Source of the DNA: Alphaproteobacteria bacterium
GTDB taxonomy: Bacteria; Pseudomonadota; Alphaproteobacteria; Puniceispirillales; Puniceispirillaceae
Assembly: GCA_009920665.1 (NCBI GenBank)
Contig: RFZL01000022.1
Span: forward strand, 1 to 38,266
Direction: 5' to 3'
DNA: 38,266 bases
Shown: positions 1 to 31,011 of the stretch, piece by piece
Layout: every line of letters begins with the position of its first letter
Numbering within the stretch: the stretch's first letter is position 1
The notes under the pieces: generated by a model
The model's database searches: none
Seen by the model: only the letters and a program-made list of their open reading frames with translations
What the model was told of the DNA's origin: nothing
Program-made: the position numbers and the translations under genes

Positions 1-2
1 TT

Positions 3-1773
3 GGAACAACCGTTGGCATTCAAAGCGCAAGATTAGATAATGCTTATACTTCTGTTGGTTTAGCTACATACTTCAATGTAACTGGTCTTGCAACGGTAGG
101 TAATTATATTAATGGAGTTTATGATCCAAATAGTAATGTTACTCTTGGTGCAGGAAAACCATACGATGTTGCAACTATTGTAGGTACATTGGGCACATCG
201 TATAGTGGAGTTGGAACAAATTTTGTAGCAGGAGTTGGAACGGATAGAATTACGGGTATTTCTACTAATAGAATTGTAAGATCTATTCAAGCAACTGGAG
301 TTGCTACTGAGTATACTACTGGAACCTATGTAAGCGTTGCTTCAACTACCAATGGATCTGGTACTGGTGCAAGATTTAATGTGACTGTTTTTGGTGGAGA
401 TATTGTAAGTATTAGTGTAGAAAGAGGTGGTTCTGGATACCTAATTGGAGATGTAATATACTTAAATGCATCAGCCACTGGAATTGGATTAACTCCACCA
501 ACTCTTGGAATAAGTTCAATCAAAGTTATCACTGTTACTGGAGTTTCTACATTAGCTGTAGGAAATGATATTTCTGGAAATTATATTCAATATGGTACAG
601 TAATTTCTGGTATAGAAACTGGAGTAGTTCTTTTATCTCAAAATACTACAAATACAACAGTAAGTTCCAATCAATCCTTTGTAAGTGGACCAAAGAGTAC
701 TATTAATCTTGATGTTACTGGAAATGCGAGAGTTACTGGTATTCTAACAGTTGGAGTTTCTTCAATCACACTTGATGGTGGTACTTCTCGAATTACAGGT
801 GTTGATCAAATAAGATCTAGAGAATTTAGTGCATCTCAGAGAGTCGTTGTAGACTATCCTATTGTTACAACTTACACTGGTACTCTTGCTTATGCAAGTA
901 CAACTAGAATCACTGGAGTTGCAACTGCAAATATTCAAGTAGGCTATGCAGTAACAAATGATTATTTACTTCCAGGAACTGCTGTTGCAGCAATTGGAAA
1001 TAGTTCTATTACTATAACTGGTTTTGCACAGAATGTTGCTCCAACACAAACAACATCTGGTTATATTGAGAGCGTAAACGGAAATAAAATTGCAGGTATT
1101 AATACTTCTAATATATTTGTTGGTTCTGCTGTTACTGGAACTTATATTCCAAACGGAGCCACAGTCTCAAGTATTGGAATCGGATCAATCACTCTTTCTG
1201 CAAATACTACTTCTCCAGTTGGAGAACGAGTATATCAAGGTACTCTGGCAGCAACAGGTGTAAGTACTATTACTGGTATTGCTACATCAGGTATAGTTGC
1301 TGGTGAAAATGTATATGCATCGGACTACATTTTATCCGGAACTACAGTTGTTTCCGTTGGTAATAGTTCAATAACCTTATCACAACCACCCTCACAAGTT
1401 GGTGTAGTTACTCAAACATTTGCATTTAGAAAAATTGATACTTATCAATTTGTTTATGCTGCTGGTGCTGTTGTAACCGATACATTCTATTTTGAAGATG
1501 CATATTCTGGAATTAGTACAATTCCTAACTTAAAAGGTAGAAATCTTATTTTCAGTGGTATTGGTAGTTTTGATACTGTTATCGCTGATACTACTATTAT
1601 TACTTCTGGTTTGATTGTAGAAAATATCAATGTTCCTGGAGTTGGTACAATTGGTGTACTTGAAGCCTCAGTTGGAGTTGTTACTGATATAAGTGGTGTT
1701 AATATTAGTTACACAGGTTTAGGATCTATTGGAAATGTTAAGATTGGATATGGAAATACTGATTTCCTTGTTG
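3..1773 (+). CDS. Partial T4-like phage virion structural protein (both ends missing)
   Basis: The frame is open from base 3 with no start inside the window and is AT-rich, unlike everything after base ~1780. The protein is built of short beta-type repeats rich in Gly, Ser, Thr and Val, such as TGVSTITGI, ARVTGILTVG and NSSITLS. Spacing and wording resemble the long repetitive structural or tail-fibre proteins of T4-like cyanophages and pelagiphages; I recognise this from memory of the family, not from a search. The reading frame continues to base 2138, but past ~1773 it is only the antisense of flagellin, so the true 3' end is missing. It has no functional link to the neighbouring genes and is most likely joined to them artificially. 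The exact phage protein (fibre, baseplate or other) cannot be told. Confidence 0.7.
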
Positions 1774-18969: not shown

Positions 18970-19548
18970 ATGGCTGAGAACGAAGCAGAACCAAAGGCAG
19001 GCGGTGGCCTGATCAAGAAACTGGCGATTTTCGGCGGTGGCGGCATCCTGCTCATCGCGATTGGCTTGGGTGTCGGTTATTTTATTTTTGGCAGTGCGCA
19101 GCCCGACCCGTCGGAGGAGATCGAGGAGATCATCGAGCGCAAGATGCAGGAGCGCGAAGAGGCCGAAGCCGCGGCCGACAACGAGACGGGCCCGAGCAAG
19201 CAATCGAAGGACACGCCGGAAGAGGAAGTCTTCGAGACGATCTATCATGAATTCCCCGGCACCTTCACGACGAACCTGTCCGGTTCGCGCAAGATGCTGC
19301 AGGTCGGCATCGGGGTATCCACGCAATATGATGATACGGTGATGATGAATGTGGAATCACACCAGCTGGCGCTGCGCTCAATCATTCTTGGCGTGATCAG
19401 CGACTTCACCGAGGATAATGTGAAGGGCGCGGTGGGACGCGAGGGTCTCGCGGCTGCGCTGCGAGATGCCATCAATACCAAGCTTGAGGACCTGGAAGGG
19501 TTTGGCGGCGTCGAGGAAGTTCATTTCACGTCGTTCGTGCTGCAATAG
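18970..19548 (+). CDS. fliL: Flagellar basal body-associated protein FliL
   Basis: FliL is a single-pass inner-membrane protein that surrounds and supports the stators. The product is 192 residues with a short Lys-containing N-terminus, one membrane helix at about residues 18-38 (LAIFGGGGILLIAIGLGVGYF), and an acidic Glu-rich linker (EEIEEIIERKMQEREEAEAA). The periplasmic SPFH-like domain begins near YHEFPGTFTTNLSG, with LQVGIGVSTQYDD and the ending VEEVHFTSFVLQ. These are the usual FliL landmarks. It stands 82 bases after fliK and 21 bases before fliM. Confidence 0.94.
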   Translation: MAENEAEPKAGGGLIKKLAIFGGGGILLIAIGLGVGYFIFGSAQPDPSEEIEEIIERKMQEREEAEAAADNETGPSKQSKDTPEEEVFETIYHEFPGTFTTNLSGSRKMLQVGIGVSTQYDDTVMMNVESHQLALRSIILGVISDFTEDNVKGAVGREGLAAALRDAINTKLEDLEGFGGVEEVHFTSFVLQ

Positions 19549-22548: not shown

Positions 22549-23370
22549 ATGCTTGGAATGGCCACAACGGAACTGATGAAGATGCCCGGGATCGATCTGC
22601 AGTTCGTGACCGGGATACTTCTGCAATATTTCCTGGCCAGCCTGCGGATCGGCGCGTTTCTGCTTTCCGCACCAATTTTCGGCGCGCGCTGGCTGCCGCT
22701 TCAGGTGCGGATCATCATGGCCTTCACCCTGGCCGCCGCTGTCATAGGTGATGTTCCGCCGGTGAGTGCCGATCTGCTGGCCTCCTCGGTTGGCATCTCG
22801 TTGATGTTTGTCGAGATAGCTGTCGGCCTCACCGCGGGTCTGATCCTGACCATCTGGTTTTCCGCGGTATTGCTGGCCGGTGAAAAGATTGCGTCATCGG
22901 CCGGCCTTGGTTATGCGGCGCAGGTTGATCCGGCGACAGGCGGCCAGACGCCGGTTGTCAGTCAGATCCTGTATCTGTTCCTGCTGGTGGTCTTTCTGTC
23001 GGTCGACGGGCATCTCCTGGCCATCGGCACAATGATGGAAAGCTATCGTATTCTGCCTGTCGGGGCGCCGGTGGCGTCGGAGGCGTTGATCGCGTCGGGC
23101 ATCGCCGCCGCCAGCTCGATGTTCCTTGCGGCGACCATCATCATGCTGCCGATCACGACGGTGCTGTTGATGATCAATGTGGCGATTGGGATTATCACGC
23201 GCTCGGCGCCGCAGCTGAACCTGTTTTCCTTTGGCTTTCCGATTTCGCTTCTGGCGGTGTTCCTGCTGCTTTTCTTCTCGGCCGGGGCGTTCGGCACAAG
23301 CTCGCAAAGCCTGATCGACAGCGCGTTGACCAGCCTTCAGGAGATGATAGGGGGGCTCGCCAATGGCTGA
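22549..23370 (+). CDS. fliR: Flagellar export gate protein FliR
   Basis: FliR completes the helical export channel with FliP and FliQ. The product is 273 residues with about six hydrophobic helices. Family motifs include RIGAFLLSAPIFGARWLPLQ, VRIIMAFTLA, GLTAGLILTIWFSAVLLAGE, SSAGLGYAAQVDPATGGQTP and the late APQLNLFSFGFPISLLAVF. The start at 22549 yields MLGMATTELMKMPGID; an internal ATG is also possible. The 3' end overlaps flhB by eight bases, as is common. Confidence 0.95.
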   Translation: MLGMATTELMKMPGIDLQFVTGILLQYFLASLRIGAFLLSAPIFGARWLPLQVRIIMAFTLAAAVIGDVPPVSADLLASSVGISLMFVEIAVGLTAGLILTIWFSAVLLAGEKIASSAGLGYAAQVDPATGGQTPVVSQILYLFLLVVFLSVDGHLLAIGTMMESYRILPVGAPVASEALIASGIAAASSMFLAATIIMLPITTVLLMINVAIGIITRSAPQLNLFSFGFPISLLAVFLLLFFSAGAFGTSSQSLIDSALTSLQEMIGGLANG

Positions 23371-24529
23371 GGAAAATCAGGACGGTCAGGAAAAAACCGA
23401 AGAACCCACCCAGCGGCGGCTGCAAAAAGCCGCCGAGGAGGGCCGGATCCTCACCTCGAAGGAGGTGATGGTCTTCACGACGCTGGCGATGGGACTTGTC
23501 CTGTTCATGGGTCTGGTTCCGTTTGTCGGCGTCGGTCTCGATGCGTGGGGATCACTGTTCAGGATCGATTCCGGCTTCAACCTCGATACGCTTGGCCTCG
23601 CGAAGGTGCGTTATGCCTTTTGGCTGCTGATCCTTTCAACACTGATCATCGGCGTGCCGATGATTGTCGCCATCATCCTGACGCAGGCGGCGGTTGGCGG
23701 GTTGAACTTTGCTGTGCAGGCGATGAATTTCAAGGGCAACCGGATCGACCCGATCGCTGGCCTGAAACGCATTTTCTCGATGAAGGGGCTGGTCGAACTT
23801 GCCAAGTCGATCCTGAAGGTCGGGTCGTTGTTCGGGATTGGCGCACTCGTCATCTACCAGCAATTGCCGCAACTGGTCTTCCTGTCGGCAAGCTCGCTTG
23901 GCCAGGGTGTCGGCCGCGCGGCACAGGCCTTTCCCTACCTTGTCGGCGGGTTGCTGATTGCCTTGCTGATCATTGCCGCCATCGACTATGCCTGGCAGAA
24001 ACATACCCACACCCAGTCGCTGCGCATGACGCTGAAGGAAGTGAAGGATGAATCGAAACAGACCGAAGGCTCGCCCGAGGTCCGTGCCAAAATCCGCCGG
24101 ATGCAGTATCAGCAGGCCCAGGATTCATCGCGTCAGCGCGAGGCCCTGGACAATGTCGGCGACGCCACGACGGTTATCACCAACCCGACCCATTTCGCCG
24201 TGGCCTTGAAATATTCTGCCGGCCAGGCCGGCGCGCCGGTTGTGCTGGCCATGGGTCGCGGCCAGATGGCCTTGCAGATTATCGAACGCGCCAAGGACGC
24301 GCGTGTACGGACGTTGCGCATTCCGATGCTGGCGCGTGCGCTGTATTTCACAAGCGAAATCGGCGGTGAAATTACCGAAGGTCTGTATAATGCGGTGGCG
24401 GTGGTGCTTGCCTATGTATTCCGTCTCGACAGCGGCGAGACCATGGACATGCCAGAATTGACATTGCCACCGGAACTGCAGTTTGACGAGAATGGTAATC
24501 CGGAAGCAGGAGGACCTGATGGCGCGTAA
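23363..24529 (+). CDS. flhB: Flagellar export switch protein FlhB
   Basis: FlhB regulates which substrates are exported and switches from hook to filament after self-cleavage. The product is 388 residues. The N-terminus, EKTEEPTQRRLQKAAEEGRI, is the family signature. Four membrane helices lie between about residues 35 and 205. The cytoplasmic domain contains the autocleavage site NPTH at residues 274-277 (TVITNPTHFAVALKY), followed by VLAMGRGQMALQIIERAKDA and IPMLARALYFTSEIGGEITE. It overlaps fliR at its start and the next small gene at its end, so transcription very probably continues into the unknown genes downstream. Confidence 0.96.
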   Translation: MAEENQDGQEKTEEPTQRRLQKAAEEGRILTSKEVMVFTTLAMGLVLFMGLVPFVGVGLDAWGSLFRIDSGFNLDTLGLAKVRYAFWLLILSTLIIGVPMIVAIILTQAAVGGLNFAVQAMNFKGNRIDPIAGLKRIFSMKGLVELAKSILKVGSLFGIGALVIYQQLPQLVFLSASSLGQGVGRAAQAFPYLVGGLLIALLIIAAIDYAWQKHTHTQSLRMTLKEVKDESKQTEGSPEVRAKIRRMQYQQAQDSSRQREALDNVGDATTVITNPTHFAVALKYSAGQAGAPVVLAMGRGQMALQIIERAKDARVRTLRIPMLARALYFTSEIGGEITEGLYNAVAVVLAYVFRLDSGETMDMPELTLPPELQFDENGNPEAGGPDGA

Positions 24530-24740
24530 CCGTAAACAGCGCAGCCTTGGCGAGATGATCAGCTCGATTTGTTTCTATGCAGTGGGGCTGTATTTCCTGC
24601 TTGAAGGGTCGCTGGCCCGCGATGAAGGTGAGCCGGCCCATATCTTTTTGGGTCTGTGGTTGGCCGGCATTGTCTGTGTCATGGGCGGTGCGCGTTTCAT
24701 GATCGCTGAAATCGTCGAGAAATTGCGGGCGAGGCGGTGA
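24519..24740 (+). CDS. Small two-helix membrane protein of unknown function
   Basis: This 73-residue protein has a perfect AGGAGG just upstream of its ATG. Its first 11 bases overlap the end of flhB, which implies translational coupling. A basic N-terminus (MARNRKQRSLGEM) is followed by two hydrophobic helices, about residues 14-31 (SSICFYAVGLYFLLEGSL) and 42-63 (HIFLGLWLAGIVCVMGGARF), and an Arg-rich end. I do not recognise the family. Position and coupling suggest a membrane partner of the flagellar export or motor machinery, but this is inference. Confidence 0.75.
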   Translation: MARNRKQRSLGEMISSICFYAVGLYFLLEGSLARDEGEPAHIFLGLWLAGIVCVMGGARFMIAEIVEKLRARR

Positions 24741-24958
24741 TGGCGGCCAAGCAACCCAACTGCTTTGAATGCAGGCATCATTTCATCACGCACGAGCCGC
24801 AACGCCCCTATGGCTGCCGGAAATTTGGCTTCAAGGGGCCTTTCCTGCCATCGCGCATGGTGTTTCAGGAAACTGGCATGAAATGTGCTTACTACGAGCC
24901 GAGCCGACGTCCCTATATGGAACGCGGGCCAACCGGATCTAACGGGAGACTGGCATGA
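24740..24958 (+). CDS. Small Cys/His protein, putative metal-binding
   Basis: This is a 72-residue protein; the start at 24740 overlaps the previous stop, and a GTG at 24737 is an alternative. It begins with NCFECRHHFITHEPQRPYGC and continues RKFGFKGPFLPSRMVFQETG and MKCAYYEP. The pattern C-x2-C-x2-H-H ... C ... C suggests a small zinc-binding fold. I recall a conserved uncharacterised family with this C-x2-C-R-H and YGCR-x-GFKS pattern in other Proteobacteria, but cannot name it. It is coupled on both sides by four-base-type overlaps, so it belongs to the flhB operon tail. Confidence 0.75.
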   Translation: MAAKQPNCFECRHHFITHEPQRPYGCRKFGFKGPFLPSRMVFQETGMKCAYYEPSRRPYMERGPTGSNGRLA

Positions 24959-25692
24959 CCACCGAGTACAATGCGGTGCAGGAGAGCATCAAGATCGCGC
25001 TTGATGCCGCCGACGCTGCCACCGACGTGACGTCTGAATACAACAAGACCAAGCGTGAGCACAAAAAGCTGGAGGACTCTGTGAAGAACGTACATCGTTT
25101 CTCAGTCATCATTTTCTCATGTTCAATGGTGGCGGCTGTTGCGGCTCTGCTGTTTGCCGGTCTGATCTACTTCCGCACCATGTCGGAACTTGACACCATG
25201 ACCACGACAAGCCGTGAAGCACTTGTTGTTTTCGCCGAGAATGTCGATGGTGTGAATGATTCACTCAACAAGATGCGGGACGCGTTGGAAACCCAGCAGA
25301 AGCTGGTTGGCCAGAACGAGACGTTGATCAACGAGCTTGTCGGTCTGCGCGACATCATCTCGCAGTCCAATGAAACGATGATGTCCGGTATCCAGACAAC
25401 CTCCACCACGATCTCGGACAGTAACAGTCAGATGGCATCTTCGATCACCAGCGGGATTGCCAATGAGCTTGGCGCCCAGACAAACCGCATGGTCAAGGAG
25501 CTGAACGCCCTGTCATCGGCCAATTCGAAGGCGTTGAGCGACATGTCAAAATCCGTGTCGGATACGAAGGGACTGGACAGGCTGGCCGCGAATCAAAAAA
25601 ATATCACCCGTCTGCTCGCTGATCTGTCGGCCCAGAACAAGGAAATCATGCGGCTGTTCAACGAGAAGGACAATCGGGTCAGCTACCCGTGA
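24955..25692 (+). CDS. Single-pass coiled-coil membrane protein of unknown function
   Basis: This is a 245-residue protein with a four-base overlap with the preceding gene. The first 48 residues are charged and helical, then one membrane helix lies at about 49-71 (FSVIIFSCSMVAAVAALLFA then GLIYF). The rest is a long Ser/Asn/Thr/Gln-rich coiled coil with NDSLNKMRDALETQQKLVGQ and repeated DSNSQM- and SSANSKALSDMSKSV-type segments. The layout resembles chemoreceptor or stalk-like signalling proteins without a signalling tip, but there is no HAMP or MCP motif. I do not recognise it. The operon context suggests a flagellum-associated or stator-associated scaffold; that is inference. Confidence 0.8.
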   Translation: MTTEYNAVQESIKIALDAADAATDVTSEYNKTKREHKKLEDSVKNVHRFSVIIFSCSMVAAVAALLFAGLIYFRTMSELDTMTTTSREALVVFAENVDGVNDSLNKMRDALETQQKLVGQNETLINELVGLRDIISQSNETMMSGIQTTSTTISDSNSQMASSITSGIANELGAQTNRMVKELNALSSANSKALSDMSKSVSDTKGLDRLAANQKNITRLLADLSAQNKEIMRLFNEKDNRVSYP

Positions 25693-25784
25693 CATTCTGA
25701 TGAATGATACTACGGGAGTGTCACGATGTTCCCTTGGATGGTTGGTCGCCAGCAGCGTTGATATCAGGATTGGCATGGTAGGGA

Positions 25785-26699
25785 ATGGAACAGCAGGACA
25801 CGGCACAGACAATTGACAATGCGGATGCGTCAGCGGCTGCCGAAGCTGCTGCGGCCGCTGTTGCGGCTGACATCGACGCCATGGCTGCCGGGCAGGTTGG
25901 TGATCCCCATGCCCGCGGGTCTGCCCAGCTTTACGAGGCCGCTGAGGCGGGTGTCGAACCCGGTACAGAAGCCAACACATTTCTGACCATCAAGGAGCTT
26001 CGGTCCATTTCGAGGGCGCGCTCACTGCGTCTCCAGCCGGACGACCTGATTGTTGCCATAGATGGCCAGCCGTTCCAGAAGGATATTGAGACCTTCCTCG
26101 ACATCATGTTCGAATGCGATCCGGAAAACGGGGTCGTACTGTCAATCTGGCGCCAGGGTGTCATCTTCAATGTGATTGCGCGCGGCCCGCTGGGATGTGT
26201 TCTGGAACATGCCAAGCCTGAATTGTCCGAGCAGGCTGTAAAGGATTTTGCCGGTGTGGTTGTCGAGTCGCAGGAAAACTACGCCACCTTCGAGGTGCTT
26301 CGCGACATTTTCCGCAACTGCATCGTCCTCGACACAAGGCTGTCGCCAATGGCAATGATTTTCCCGCCGCTCTGGTGCGTGCAGAACAGATTGTGGGAAG
26401 TGCTGATCGCCGTGTTCCTCGTCTACGGGATCACGCTGGCCGTTCATTGGGTGCTGTTTGTCATCGCTTTTGTTGTTCTGGGGATCTATTTCCGGAAGGC
26501 GCATCTCGTGCTTCGCCGCAGTTTTGCGATGATGCGCGGGCGGCATATCTGGGTGGTGCTGGCTGTTAAATCGGAACTCGAGGCGCAGCGCCTTTGTCGC
26601 AAGCTTGACCCGAAATCAATTTTTGTTCCGGATCTTGTTGGTCCGCCGGTGGTAGATGAACCACCGAAGAAAAAGCGCCGCAGACGGGCCAGCAATTAA
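25785..26699 (+). CDS. PDZ-like domain protein with C-terminal membrane helices
   Basis: This is a 304-residue protein, 92 bases after the coiled-coil gene. An Ala-rich N-terminus of about 60 residues is followed by a PDZ-like segment, about residues 65-125: ISRARSLRLQPDDLIVAIDG, QPFQKDIETFLDIMF and VVLSIWRQGVIFNVIA. A middle domain with no clear family follows, then two hydrophobic helices around 203-237 (LWEVLIAVFLVYGITLAV then HWVLFVIAFVVLGIYF). The very basic end reads PKKKRRRRASN. There is no protease domain. It is probably the last gene of the operon tail. Function is unknown; PDZ segments usually bind peptide ends, so a tethering role is possible. Confidence 0.8.
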   Translation: MEQQDTAQTIDNADASAAAEAAAAAVAADIDAMAAGQVGDPHARGSAQLYEAAEAGVEPGTEANTFLTIKELRSISRARSLRLQPDDLIVAIDGQPFQKDIETFLDIMFECDPENGVVLSIWRQGVIFNVIARGPLGCVLEHAKPELSEQAVKDFAGVVVESQENYATFEVLRDIFRNCIVLDTRLSPMAMIFPPLWCVQNRLWEVLIAVFLVYGITLAVHWVLFVIAFVVLGIYFRKAHLVLRRSFAMMRGRHIWVVLAVKSELEAQRLCRKLDPKSIFVPDLVGPPVVDEPPKKKRRRRASN

Positions 26700-26792
26700 G
26701 GCCATCGCCATCGCGTACAGGCATTTTGACGTTTGTCAGCCTGATCCGCCTCGTCCATACTGCCGCCCGATACCGGAATGGGCAGGGCGCAG

Positions 26793-28070
26793 ATGCAGGA
26801 TCACTCCAGTCGGCAAGTATCGGCGGACGCTGTGCCGCATGTCCGCTTTGACCGAGCCCTTCTTGTCTGGCTGAAAGTCAGCCTGCTCAGTTTTGGTGGG
26901 CCGGCCGGGCAGATCGCGGTAATGCACCGCCTGCTGGTTGAGGAGCTGAAATGGGTCAGCGAAAGGCGTTTCCTGCATGCGTTGAATTTCTGCATGCTGC
27001 TTCCGGGTCCGGAGGCACAGCAACTCACGATATATCTCGGATGGCTGTTGCACCGCGTGCGGGGCGGTGTCGTCGCCGGTGTGTTGTTTGTCCTGCCCGG
27101 GGCGCTGATTGTTCTTGCGCTCAGCATGCTGTATGTCACCTACCAGCATCGGCTGATCGTGATCACCGCAGCGGCCTTTCTTGCCAGCTTTGTTTTCGGT
27201 GTACCTTTCCCGCTCGTTATCCTGGGGGCGGCGCTGGCCGCCCTGCTGTGGCGAGTGCCTGCGGATGGCGGCGGTGATGACCCTGATTCTGCCGGTGATC
27301 AACGTATCATCGATCGTCGCATCGACAGCCATGGCGTCATACCGACGAACCGTAGCGCCCTGCGGGCGGCCATTGTCTGTGCCGTGTTATGGCTGGCCCC
27401 GGTGATATGTCTCCATGGGTGGCTTGGTGCCGGTCATATCTATGTCCAGCAGGGAATGTTCTTCAGCCAGGTCGCGGTGGTGACCTTTGGCGGTGCCTAT
27501 GCGGTGCTGTCCTACATGGCGCAGCAGACGGTCGGCCATTATGGCTGGCTCAGCGCGGGCGAGATGCTGGACGGTCTTGGCATGGCCGAGACCACGCCGG
27601 GCCCGCTGATCATGGTCACGCAATTTGTCGGTTTCATCGGCGCCTATCGCAGCCCCGGCATGCTGGATCCCATGCTGGCCGGCACGCTGGGCGCGCTGGT
27701 CACAACCTGGGTTACATTTGCCCCGTGCTTTCTGTGGATTTTCCTTGGCGCGCCCTATATCGAGGCATTGCGCGGCAACCGGCTGCTTGCCACCGCGCTG
27801 ACCGGCATCACGGCTGCCGTTGTCGGGGTGGTGCTGAACCTTGCCATCTGGTTCGGATTGCGGGTGATGTTCACTGATCTTGTCGAGGTGACACTGCCGG
27901 TGACCGGCAGGACGCTGCAACTGCCGGCAATCACCAGCTTTGATCCGCTGGCCAGCGCGATCACCATTGCCGCCTTCGTCGCCATCGTCATTTTCCGGGT
28001 CGGCATGATCAGGGTGCTGGCAACGAGCGCCTGTCTCGGTCTGGCGGCAGGGTCGGTCGGCCTGGCCTGA
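26793..28070 (+). CDS. chrA: Chromate transporter ChrA, two-domain form
   Basis: This CHR-family membrane transporter is credited with chromate efflux. The product is 425 residues from the ATG at 26793, chosen because AGGG lies five bases upstream; an ATG at 26778 is in frame. The first CHR half contains FGGPAGQIAVMHRLLVEELK, WVSERRFLHALNFCMLLPGP and EAQQLTIYLGWLLH. The second half repeats the pattern with FGGAYAVLSYMAQQTVGHYG, EMLDGLGMAETTPGPLIMVT and QFVGFIGAYR. About ten to twelve hydrophobic helices are visible. It lies between the flagellar tail genes and the convergent motAB operon and is probably unrelated to motility. Confidence 0.92.
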   Translation: MQDHSSRQVSADAVPHVRFDRALLVWLKVSLLSFGGPAGQIAVMHRLLVEELKWVSERRFLHALNFCMLLPGPEAQQLTIYLGWLLHRVRGGVVAGVLFVLPGALIVLALSMLYVTYQHRLIVITAAAFLASFVFGVPFPLVILGAALAALLWRVPADGGGDDPDSAGDQRIIDRRIDSHGVIPTNRSALRAAIVCAVLWLAPVICLHGWLGAGHIYVQQGMFFSQVAVVTFGGAYAVLSYMAQQTVGHYGWLSAGEMLDGLGMAETTPGPLIMVTQFVGFIGAYRSPGMLDPMLAGTLGALVTTWVTFAPCFLWIFLGAPYIEALRGNRLLATALTGITAAVVGVVLNLAIWFGLRVMFTDLVEVTLPVTGRTLQLPAITSFDPLASAITIAAFVAIVIFRVGMIRVLATSACLGLAAGSVGLA

Positions 28071-28105: not shown

Positions 28106-29263
28106 TCAATAATTGATTTCGATCTCGATCCGGCGGTTGGTGGCGCGGCCGCGTGCCGTATCGTTCGTTTCGACCGGCTGCGATTCACCAAAGCTGACAG
28201 CCTGCATACGGCCGGCCGGCACCTTGCCGGTATCTTCCAGCGCCTGCACGACACTGGAGGCGCGCGCGGCCGCCAGATCCCAATTGTCGCGGAACTGCGA
28301 GCCGAAGATCAGCGGGACATTGTCTGTATGGCCGGACACGGTGATCTCTCCCGATCCGGCTTCATTGACGCCGGCGATCTCTTCCATGATCTTGCGGGCA
28401 GCTTCCGTCAGTTCGGCCGAACCTGACGGGAATGCCCCGCCGGCACCAACCGTGATGATGACCTTGTCTTCCTGCCGGTCAACAGCGACCAGACCCTGGC
28501 CGATCTCCTGGCGAAGGGCGACCTTCAGGTCATCCTCGGCGATCTCGGCCTTCTCATTGGATTCCTTCTGCTGCTCCGCCTCGGCCTGCGCCTCGGCAGA
28601 GGCGGCACTGTTAGACTGCATGGCGGCGTCTGCGGCGGCGGCAAGCTGTGCCAGCTTCTGCTCAAGCCCGCCGAACAGAACTTCCTGTTCCGCCTTGCCG
28701 GCGGCTTTCTTGGCCTTGTCGATGGCCTCCAGCGTTTCCTGCAACAGGTTGGGAAGTTCTTCATCCTTGGCTTCGGTCGGGGTGAAATTGACCACGACAT
28801 TCTCGCCAAGAACCTCGACCTCGATATCGCCGCGCGCGATGGCATCCTCTAACGCTTTCACAACCTCTTCGGCAGCTTCGCTTTCGCCGCCATCCTGGTC
28901 CTTTTCGCGCTGTTTCACATCGAGGTCGGGCTTCGTGACATCGGTTGTCTGCTGCGTCATATCCTGGGTCACCGAAGGCGAGGGCGACGGGCTGAAATTC
29001 AGCGACAGCACGGTTGTGCCCTTCGGCTGTTCAACAATCGGCACGATCTTCTGCACACCAAAGGCATTCTTCAGCGAGCCCGAGATCTGCTTGAATTTCG
29101 GCACGTTGAATTCGGCGAAGGACAGAATCAGGACGAAGAAGGCCATCAGCAAAGTGGCCATGTCGGCGAAGGTCGCCATCCATGCCGGCGCGCCGACAGG
29201 CGGGCATTTCGGGCATTCTTCCTCTTCCTGCTCTTCGACTTCTTCTTCGACAAGGTCGTTCAT
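28106..29263 (-). CDS. motB: Flagellar stator protein MotB (PomB-like)
   Basis: MotB forms the ion channel with MotA and anchors it to peptidoglycan. The product is 385 residues. The N-terminus, CPKCPPVGAPAWMATFADMA then TLLMAFFVLILSF, carries the ion-binding Asp in TFAD. The following AEFNVPKFKQISGSLKNAFG reads like PomB, the sodium-type form. The C-terminal OmpA-like domain has VSGHTDNVPL, DLAAARASSVVQAL and RGRATNRRIEIEI. Between them lies an unusually long acidic linker and an Ala/Gln/Glu-rich coiled coil (about residues 185-250), making it longer than typical MotB. It starts 56 bases after the motA stop, so the two form one operon. Sodium use is inferred from resemblance, not shown. Confidence 0.92.
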   Translation of the reverse strand: MNDLVEEEVEEQEEEECPKCPPVGAPAWMATFADMATLLMAFFVLILSFAEFNVPKFKQISGSLKNAFGVQKIVPIVEQPKGTTVLSLNFSPSPSPSVTQDMTQQTTDVTKPDLDVKQREKDQDGGESEAAEEVVKALEDAIARGDIEVEVLGENVVVNFTPTEAKDEELPNLLQETLEAIDKAKKAAGKAEQEVLFGGLEQKLAQLAAAADAAMQSNSAASAEAQAEAEQQKESNEKAEIAEDDLKVALRQEIGQGLVAVDRQEDKVIITVGAGGAFPSGSAELTEAARKIMEEIAGVNEAGSGEITVSGHTDNVPLIFGSQFRDNWDLAAARASSVVQALEDTGKVPAGRMQAVSFGESQPVETNDTARGRATNRRIEIEINY

Positions 29264-29319: not shown

Positions 29320-30081
29320 TCAGGCCGCGGCCAGCTTTTCCTGCAGCTTTGGTGGCAGATTGGACAGAAGTTGATCCTGGATGTTACGTGGAGATTCGCC
29401 GCGTGCGATGTTACGAAGACCTTCAACAACCATTTCACGGTAGACAATCTCATAGGCGGTATAGCCTTCAAGCTTGGTGACCATGGGCGCAAACAGAATG
29501 TTGGCAATGAAGGCACCGTAAAGCGTCGTTAGAAGCGCCACCGCCATCGCCGGGCCAATGGCCTTTGGGTCGGCCATGTTGCCAAGCATTAGAACAAGTC
29601 CAACCAGCGTGCCAATCATGCCCATGGCCGGCGCCAGGTCGACCCATGCCTTAATCACGCCCTGATTGGCTTCATGGCGGGATTTCATCGACTTGATTTC
29701 CTGTTTCAGCTGCGCCGTGAGCTTTGCCTCGTCGGCGCCGTCAACGAGCATCTGCAAGCCTTTCTCAAAAAACTTGTCGGGCACTTCCTGTCCCTCCAGC
29801 GCCATCATGCCATCCTTGCGGGCGATACCGGCAAGGTCGACCATACGCTCAACCATCCCGTCCATTTTCTTGACGGGTGGCAGAAAGGCCTTGGCCATGA
29901 CACCGAAACTGCCAAGAAAGACAGGAAGCGGAGCCGTATACATGACAGCAAAGAAGGTGCCGCCAAACACGATCAGGATCGACGCAACGTCGATAAATGG
30001 ACCGATGCCGCCCCCGGAAATCATCGCGCCAAGGATCATCCCGATGGCGCCCAGAAGGCCAATAAGTGATGCGATATCCAT
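29320..30081 (-). CDS. motA: Flagellar stator protein MotA (PomA-like)
   Basis: MotA is the four-helix stator subunit that pushes on FliG. The product is 253 residues, normal length. Helices 1 and 2 include FIDVASILIVFGGTFFAVM. The cytoplasmic loop contains DKFFEKGLQMLVDGADEAKL and the charged region before helix 3. Helices 3 and 4 include VIKAWVDLAPAMGMIGTLVG, LVLMLGNMADPKAIGPAMAV and ALLTTLYGAFIANILFAPMV. The tail YTAYEIVYREMVVEGLRNIA then RGESPRNI is conserved. The wording is closest to PomA. A sigma-54 promoter match lies about 40 bases upstream. Confidence 0.94.
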   Translation of the reverse strand: MDIASLIGLLGAIGMILGAMISGGGIGPFIDVASILIVFGGTFFAVMYTAPLPVFLGSFGVMAKAFLPPVKKMDGMVERMVDLAGIARKDGMMALEGQEVPDKFFEKGLQMLVDGADEAKLTAQLKQEIKSMKSRHEANQGVIKAWVDLAPAMGMIGTLVGLVLMLGNMADPKAIGPAMAVALLTTLYGAFIANILFAPMVTKLEGYTAYEIVYREMVVEGLRNIARGESPRNIQDQLLSNLPPKLQEKLAAA

Positions 30082-30302: not shown

Positions 30303-30776
30303 ATGCGACTGGCAGGAGCGATTCTTTGTCTTGGACTCTGGCTGACTGCATCGGTTGCCAATGCTGCCAGTTTCATGACACGCGACCATCTGGTGATCGA
30401 TCTGCGGCACGGAATCGAATGGCTGCGTTGTTCGGTTGGGCAGGTCTGGGACGGCGCAACCTGCAGTGGCGAGGTGATGACGCTCGACCATGAACAGATT
30501 GAGCAGGCCATCAAACTCGCCAATGAACAGCTGGGGGGCGCATGGCGACTTCCCGACCGCGAGGAGCTTGAAGGGCTGGTTTGTCCCACCTGTGGTCCGC
30601 CACAGATTGACGCCGAGATTTTTCCCGGCACATCGGGTGAACCCTATTGGACCGGGCAGGTCAACAACAACGCGCGGCGGTTCTACTACTCAGTGAATTT
30701 CCTGAATGGCTGGACTTTTGGCCGCTTCCTGCCCACTAAGCAGCTGGCGGTTCGCCTTGTTCGGGATCGGCGCTAG
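30303..30776 (+). CDS. Secreted DUF1566-type protein
   Basis: This is a 157-residue protein. It has an N-terminal signal peptide (MRLAGAILCLGLWLTASVANA) likely cleaved after ANA, so it acts in the periplasm or outside. The mature part contains LRCSVGQVWDGATCSGE, GGAWRLPDREELEGLVCPTC and YWTGQVNNNARRFYYSVNF, then GRFLPTKQLAVRLVRD. The WRLP-x-EL and final VRLVR phrases are the hallmark of the DUF1566 (Lcl C-terminal) fold found in many secreted proteins. Four Cys residues may form disulfides. AAGGGG precedes the ATG. It diverges from motAB; no specific function is known. Confidence 0.82.
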   Translation: MRLAGAILCLGLWLTASVANAASFMTRDHLVIDLRHGIEWLRCSVGQVWDGATCSGEVMTLDHEQIEQAIKLANEQLGGAWRLPDREELEGLVCPTCGPPQIDAEIFPGTSGEPYWTGQVNNNARRFYYSVNFLNGWTFGRFLPTKQLAVRLVRDRR

Positions 30777-31011
30777 CCTCGCGCGATTCAAGCTTCCACA
30801 GAACGATCTTGATGATCAGCCCGGCGATGCCGATGGCCCATATGGCGAGTGCGGCGCGCATCGGGGTTACCGATTGCAGATAATGCAGCCTGTCATCAGC
30901 GACCAGTGCGAAAATCGCCAGACCGATGGCTGCGACTACGAAAAACCGTATCACCCGGCACCGATAACAGGTGGTACCACGCGGCGGGCGTTGACGTGAC
31001 AGGGTCAGCAT
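30736..31011 (-). CDS. Small two-helix membrane protein
   Basis: This 91-residue protein has a strong GGAGGA eight bases ahead of its ATG. The N-terminus is basic (RQRPPRGTTCYRCRVI). Two membrane helices follow at about residues 22-38 (RFFVVAAIGLAIFALVA) and 52-72 (RAALAIWAIGIAGLIIKIVL), and the tail is acidic. Its 3' end overlaps the 3' end of the convergent DUF1566 gene by 41 bases. I do not recognise the family. The good ribosome site and clean two-helix pattern make it more than a chance frame. Confidence 0.6.
   Translation of the reverse strand: MLTLSRQRPPRGTTCYRCRVIRFFVVAAIGLAIFALVADDRLHYLQSVTPMRAALAIWAIGIAGLIIKIVLWKLESREASADPEQGEPPAA

Follow-up and report, generated by a model that had tools for sequence, protein, structure and literature searches.

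A probable MotF stator-activation module behind flhB in SAR116 and other marine Alphaproteobacteria

Introduction

What is the role of four genes that stand in tight succession behind the flagellar export-gate gene flhB? The question is raised by contig RFZL01000022.1 of GenBank assembly GCA_009920665.1, which is called the window here and was analyzed over its full length of 38,266 nucleotides (one whole contig, C125; genome size 2.7 Mb). Its kin are the SAR116 bacteria, and the records compared with it carry numbered labels for loci (L) and genomes (G). The four genes, named P1 to P4, had been described from the letters alone, in what is hereafter the original prediction, as a tail of the flhB operon that could be an accessory of the export gate or the stator. 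The reading favored here, with a probability of about 0.72, is that the block is a MotF stator-activation module of a Fla1-type flagellum (sigma54, H-ring), in which P3 is the MotF homologue and P4, P1 and P2 are its companions.

The Four Genes Behind flhB

The four open reading frames (ORFs) were confirmed where the original prediction had put them (Table 1), together with the overlaps described for flhB, P1, P2 and P3. These amount to 11 bases between flhB and P1 (24519-24529), a single base between P1 and P2 (24740) and four bases between P2 and P3 (24955-24958), and P4 follows P3 after a 92-base gap. Ratios of nonsynonymous to synonymous substitution rates (dN/dS) for P1, P2, P3 and P4 were 0.10, 0.18, 0.07 and 0.13 against the same-genus locus L052, and 0.12, 0.18, 0.10 and 0.16 against L036, also of the same genus. 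Since all values lie at 0.07-0.18, P1-P4 are real genes under purifying selection and not chance reading frames. Scans of the four proteins against Pfam and NCBIfam gave no family above cut-off for any of them. P1 has the two hydrophobic segments expected of the two-helix protein that had been proposed. P2 had been taken for a Cys/His mini-protein; its four cysteines are invariant and its histidines are not. For P3, described as a coiled-coil membrane protein, a single transmembrane (TM) segment is present, and the long C-terminal part is probably coiled-coil as read from its residues.

Table 1. Position and basis of the flhB block and of neighboring features in the window (aa, amino acids).
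Feature	Position	Strand	Basis
flhB, export-gate gene, head of block	23363-24529	+	Pfam Bac_export_2, E 1.9e-100
P1, 73 aa, two-TM protein	24519-24740	+	ORF; matched in 63/65 named loci; dN/dS 0.10
P2, 72 aa, four invariant Cys	24740-24958	+	dN/dS 0.18
P3, 245 aa, MotF family	24955-25692	+	hhalign to profile containing C. sphaeroides
P4, 304 aa, membrane protein with PDZ	25785-26699	+	AlphaFold model; fold match; homologue beside motF homologue in C. sphaeroides
fliL	18970-19548	+	Pfam FliL, E 1.7e-16
Chromate transporter gene, between P4 and motB	26790-28070
motB, stator subunit, proposed target	28106-29263	-	Pfam MotB_plug and OmpA
motA, stator subunit	29320-30081	-	Pfam MotA_ExbB
Lcl_C-domain protein, conserved motAB neighbor	30303-30776	+	Pfam Lcl_C, E 2.1e-19; 35/65 named loci listed
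P5, small membrane protein, conserved neighbor	30790-30984 (match range)	-	tblastn 2e-11; 31/65 named loci listed

P3 as a Member of the MotF Family

In a review (PMC7277832), MotF of Cereibacter sphaeroides is described as a 24-kDa protein with a TM region at residues 54-74 and a large periplasmic part, which is required for rotation of the Fla1 flagellum. FliL and MotF are held there to act on the plug of the stator protein MotB, plug mutations make both of them dispensable, and the recruitment of MotF depends on FlgT (PMC7277832). A profile built from SAR116 P3 proteins only was aligned by hhalign with a profile of Rhodobacteraceae proteins only, C. sphaeroides 2.4.1 included, over residues 2-149 with a probability of 99.3% (E 7.3e-21); when the settings were changed, the alignment covered residues 2-114. 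Controls with five shuffles, a reversal and the profiles of FliL, MotB, FliN and FliO reached a probability of 2.8% at most.

Genome G353 was identified as C. sphaeroides 2.4.1 by two 3-kb stretches that match the plasmids of this strain at 100% over their full length. Directly after flhB it carries a P3 homologue (L202:7555-8271), which, read from its first ATG, has 239 aa, 24.77 kDa and its best 21-residue hydrophobic window at 54-74. As this size and this TM window agree with the published MotF, the protein is read as MotF. The P4 homologue beside it, with a TM region near 126-167, departs from the MotF description, and neither of the two proteins reached the cut-off of any Pfam family. The motF gene probably corresponds to RSP_0067. 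In a further paper, fliN is RSP_0061, fliP is RSP_0063 and RSP_0067 is a hypothetical protein (PMC9779115).

The window P3 has its best TM window at 49-67, within a span of 46-77, with seven lysine or arginine residues on the N-terminal flank and one on the C-terminal flank. It would thus be a bitopic protein, N-in by charge, with its large C-terminal part in the periplasm. The extreme C-terminus is [FY]P in 103 of the 105 distinct sequences of the joint set, and the two exceptions end in FSR. The alternative that P3 is a bitopic coiled-coil protein without relation to MotF, only similarly located, is very improbable: its last ~100-130 residues are not alignable, as such a protein would lead one to expect, but the profile match stands far above all controls, the TM segment is similarly placed and the C-terminal motif is shared. 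By these comparisons P3 belongs to the MotF family of C. sphaeroides and, by analogy, the SAR116 protein would act as MotF does there. Hence one gene of the block does match a flagellar protein, contrary to the original prediction, whose suggested link to the stator is upheld through this homology.

The likeness to the Fla1 MotF covers the position behind flhB, the size (~24-27 kDa), the single TM near 46-77, the predicted N-in orientation, the C-terminal [FY]P and the presence of FlgT and FliL in the genome. The periplasmic part of P3, in contrast, has diverged, and the window has P1 and P2 between flhB and motF. A protein of the same name is known from Sinorhizobium meliloti, where MotF is a FliL paralogue according to the title of a paper cited in PMC9812332. 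It shares with P3 the name and, as far as that source goes, a tie to stator activity. Unlike it, P3 gave no FliL match against Pfam at E<=1, and the FliL profile control remained at 2.8%. Since P3 shows no relation to FliL, the name MotF seems to cover two different proteins.

P4 as a Candidate Partner of MotF

The PDZ-like membrane protein of the original prediction was recognized in P4, for which AlphaFold gives a confident model (mean predicted local distance difference test score, pLDDT, 88.6). The model holds a PDZ domain (residues 62-151), a second alpha-beta part, a membrane hairpin at ~204-250 and a C-terminal beta-alpha part. The PDZ fold matches the PDZ domains of GRASP and RseP (Z ~10-11, up to 11.2 over 86 residues), and Pfam PDZ_6 was found only below cut-off (E 0.0061). 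Unlike in RseP, no protease part is recognized in P4 by Pfam, and the fold match bears mainly on the PDZ part. Because no signal peptide can be recognized by eye and the hairpin is followed by six basic residues, the PDZ and the other soluble parts are predicted to lie in the cytoplasm.

SAR116 and Rhodobacteraceae profiles of P4 match at 99.9% (E 1.8e-32), and a P4 homologue stands beside the motF homologue in C. sphaeroides. Since P4 stays beside motF where P1 and P2 are gone, it may be regarded as the best candidate for a cytoplasmic partner of MotF. Quite tentatively, P4 could be an undescribed cytoplasmic PDZ adaptor that couples completion of the export gate or the C-ring to stator unlocking via MotF; P1 and P2 would then be the remaining members of a four-part ancestral activation unit, of which C. 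sphaeroides has kept MotF and P4.

P1 and P2

The four cysteines of P2 are a likely candidate for a zinc site, and the AlphaFold model of the protein is poor (pLDDT 62). The P2 profile was searched against 299 genomes of the phylum and gave matches at E<=0.01 in 85, with the genome of the window among them; three of these are weak (E ~0.005). In 19 of these loci, each 2.3-3.2 kb long, none of the window's flagellar proteins had a match beside P2 except for one MotB match, which in L222 is a match to an OmpA-like protein. P2 as a flagellum-specific metal subunit was therefore rejected at the level of the family, because the family occurs away from flagellar genes; as for the metal-binding subunit that had been foreseen, P2 may still bind metal through its four cysteines. 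In L221 (120-1680), a P2 relative lies behind genes that presumably resemble iron-sulfur-cluster and Rieske-type genes. The Cys4 domain may thus be a general metal-related module. The label 'uracil-DNA glycosylase' on one P2 relative was given no weight, and neither P2 nor a further relative could be assigned to a Pfam family.

Linkage to flhB Among Close Relatives

Among 61 genomes of the order, the window's own included, flhB was found in 41 and P3 in the same 41. The remaining 20 have neither, and as the two genes adjoin, one assembly gap removes both. In G020, which is one of the 20, the contig stops at the start of P4 with motB and motA still on it. Because a gap would take out these neighbors together, absence of the block from non-flagellated relatives is only weakly tested by these genomes. 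Forty flhB loci of the order were fetched; P2 is present in 39 of them, P3 in 38 and P4 in 37, and the three loci that miss a gene (L034, L058 and L070) each run into a contig end. An ORF for P1 was called in 29 of the 40.

A second collection of at least 65 named loci was gathered with the P3 profile. Because P3 was the criterion of selection and some genomes are common to both sets, this collection and the 40 loci are not independent; 21 of the 65 named loci listed bear a SAR116 label. The order flhB-P1-P2-P3-P4 on one strand is kept in 63 of the 65 listed, and in the remaining two a contig end interrupts the block. The conserved linkage of the block to flhB, which the original prediction had left to be checked, is thereby supported for these loci.

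Wider Distribution

In a sample of 240 genomes drawn across the class, flhB occurs in 153, but P3 and P2 are each convincing in the same six only, all with flhB; three of nine P3 matches and four of ten P2 matches were weak (E>0.001) and were dropped. The block therefore marks a particular kind of flagellum. P4 of full length (E<=2e-67) was likewise found in six, namely five of the six P3-bearing genomes and G020; in the sixth P3-bearing genome, G201, the contig ends inside P3. At E<=0.001 the P4 search had reached 117 of the 240 genomes, and those without a full-length match were dropped; among the matches listed, the non-full-length ones are short, partial and mostly to the PDZ part.

The Rhodobacteraceae, the family of the genome of L102 (Rhodobacteraceae bacterium SB2), were sampled with 394 genomes, and a P3 homologue with E<3e-7 is present in 26, G353 among them. 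At E<=0.05 this search had reached 39 genomes, of which 13 (E>=7e-4) were left out as probable chance matches. Twenty of the 26 regions were fetched. In 17 of these P3 lies just downstream of flhB, either directly or with P1, P2 or further ORFs in between (exceptions L197, L198 and L199). P4 comes after P3 in 17 as well; the contig breaks off in two of the exceptions, L201 and L210, and the third is L203. Among the 20 regions, P1 was called in 13 and P2 in six.

Some single records should also be mentioned. In L194 (6929-7510), L195 (7212-7814), L204 (8602-9186) and L198 (8394-9086), an opposite-strand ORF of ~195-230 aa stands before P3 at the place of P2, and by eye the four sequences are similar. 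The small ORFs that lie between P4 and rpoN in L206 (9759-10459), L211 (6033-6757) and L196 (9637-10008) encode what we take to resemble cyclic-nucleotide-binding domains. The plasmid of Octadecabacter arcticus 238 carries homologues of all four genes behind flhB, with rpoN and motBA nearby. A tblastn search of plasmids with the window P3 at E 0.01 found none, yet this plasmid copy was found by a single-locus search. The block also appears in a record labelled Candidatus Pelagibacterales (NP101; L138) and in a Planktomarina bin (L135), whose genome gave two P3 matches. These two occurrences may reflect wrong labels or bins, or transfer of the cluster.

The Type of Flagellum

In a maximum-likelihood tree of 47 FlhB proteins, drawn with a midpoint root, the 25 FlhBs from MotF-bearing loci, that of C. 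sphaeroides Fla1 included, fall on one side of a branch with support 100/100. The nearest others as drawn are two alphaproteobacterial proteins (family f16), then one gammaproteobacterial and one betaproteobacterial protein. The other 18 alphaproteobacterial rows, among which there is a long-branch warning, fall further off. According to the review, Fla1 was acquired from an ancient gammaproteobacterium (PMC7277832), and a further paper describes fla2 and fla3 as recruited from other alphaproteobacterial orders (PMC12363192). The tree supports a shared, non-typical FlhB; the donor is not settled by it.

FlgT was sought by its N-terminal Pfam domain, FlgT_N, which was found at E<=0.001 in 15 of the 16 MotF-bearing genomes (14 over the Pfam cut-off), including the genome of the window (G000), where it lies on another contig. 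Only six of 190 class genomes have the domain: five of them carry P3, and the sixth is G020, in which the block is cut by the contig end. Co-occurrence of FlgT and P3 gives p 3e-9 by Fisher's exact test if the 190 are within the 240, with kinship uncorrected. Because FlgT co-occurs with the MotF homologue, a link of the block to the motor ring is suggested.

The fla3-type cluster of Rhodobacterales (PMC12363192; reference C. sphaeroides RSP_0032-0083) is comparable in that FlhB groups with Fla1, rpoN is in the cluster, FlgT is in the genome and MotF is present. A further likeness is that two ORFs of the window, recognized by eye, resemble sigma54 activators. The placement of motAB and the gene content vary, in contrast.

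Stator Activation and the Alternatives

In the proposed mechanism, the conserved basic N-terminus of P3 would lie in the cytoplasm, followed by one membrane-crossing helix and the long periplasmic part, which would be held at the motor by the FlgT H-ring. P3 and FliL would then remodel the MotB plug and open the stator channel, so that protons flow and rotation starts. P4 might bind the peptide tail of a partner at the stator, at the export gate or on the MotF side and help to place or stabilize MotF, and P1 and P2 could be accessory factors of the same activation step. Homology, linkage, FlgT co-occurrence and the PDZ fold were computed here; the rotation requirement, the MotB-plug suppressors and the FlgT dependence are taken from work on C. 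sphaeroides. Every role given to P1, P2 and P4 in motor activation is one that we infer.

Several observations weigh against this reading. P3 and MotF can be aligned over the first ~115-145 residues only, and the fit of the 2.4.1 homologue to the published TM range depends on the choice of the first ATG, for the open frame already begins at a GTG 19 codons upstream. The interval between flhB and motF is too short in C. sphaeroides to hold P1 and P2, and in G577 the MotF homologue stands between flhB and rpoN, where P1, P2 and P4 are all missing, so that these three are not obligatory companions. FlgT_N was not found in G039, one of the 16 MotF-bearing genomes, and in 17 of 49 testable named loci no convergent motB was found within 5 kb of P4. 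No motility data were seen for any SAR116 member.

Two further explanations have to be weighed with these points. One is that only P3 acts in the motor, and that P1, P2 and P4 are passengers of a transferred flagellar cluster, P4 serving for instance in membrane quality control and P2 in metal sensing. The absences in C. sphaeroides and G577 are what it would expect, as are the P2 family members away from flagellar genes and the RseP-type PDZ domains among the P4 matches. It is nevertheless doubtful, for gene order is kept throughout nearly all named loci listed (63/65) and P4 persists after P3 in 17 of the 20 Rhodobacteraceae regions, with two of the three exceptions cut by contig ends.

The other is an export-gate accessory, in which secretion is tuned through binding of FlhB or FlhA by the small overlapping proteins together with the PDZ protein, and P3 is only one part that has a second role. 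It accords with the overlap with flhB in the window, the constant position after flhB and the soluble parts of P4, cytoplasmic by charge. In C. sphaeroides, however, there is neither P1 nor P2 behind this flhB, the phenotype of MotF is a rotation defect that is suppressed in MotB (PMC7277832), and the co-occurrence with FlgT points to the motor ring. Such an accessory of the export gate, one of the two roles offered by the original prediction, is therefore unlikely, and nothing was found for it beyond linkage. Stator activation is the best reading of the block in preference to it.

Neighboring Genes in the Window

Downstream of P4, the window has the chromate transporter gene and then motB and motA in convergent orientation. 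Of the 49 named loci that leave more than 4.5 kb of room, 32 have a convergent motB no further than 5 kb from P4. The chromate transporter was seen by tblastn in six of the 40 fetched loci, every one of the same genus. The genes for the Lcl_C-domain protein and P5 flank motA. At the left end of the window (1-1718), a repetitive contig-edge ORF runs into a flagellin gene that is seemingly truncated at 1719, and this end of the contig is possibly chimeric. A phage search with the left-edge ORF, with low-complexity filtering on, gave no match.

Significance

MotF itself is already known; what seems to be new is that it extends to SAR116 and further alphaproteobacteria of the sea, and that it is linked to P1, P2 and P4. 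In the searches made of the open-licence literature, MotF in these bacteria and the linked P1, P2 and P4 were not found, nor was a paper that joins a PDZ domain, the flagellar motor, the stator and Alphaproteobacteria; SAR116 and MotF appeared together in none of the matches listed. The question of how stators unlock at the motor is still open, and among the factors genetically tied to the MotB plug is MotF. Beyond the Rhodobacteraceae, MotF marks a flagellum common to SAR116 and other marine alphaproteobacteria, and P4, whose homologue stands beside motF in the species where MotF was studied, would provide a concrete candidate for its partner.

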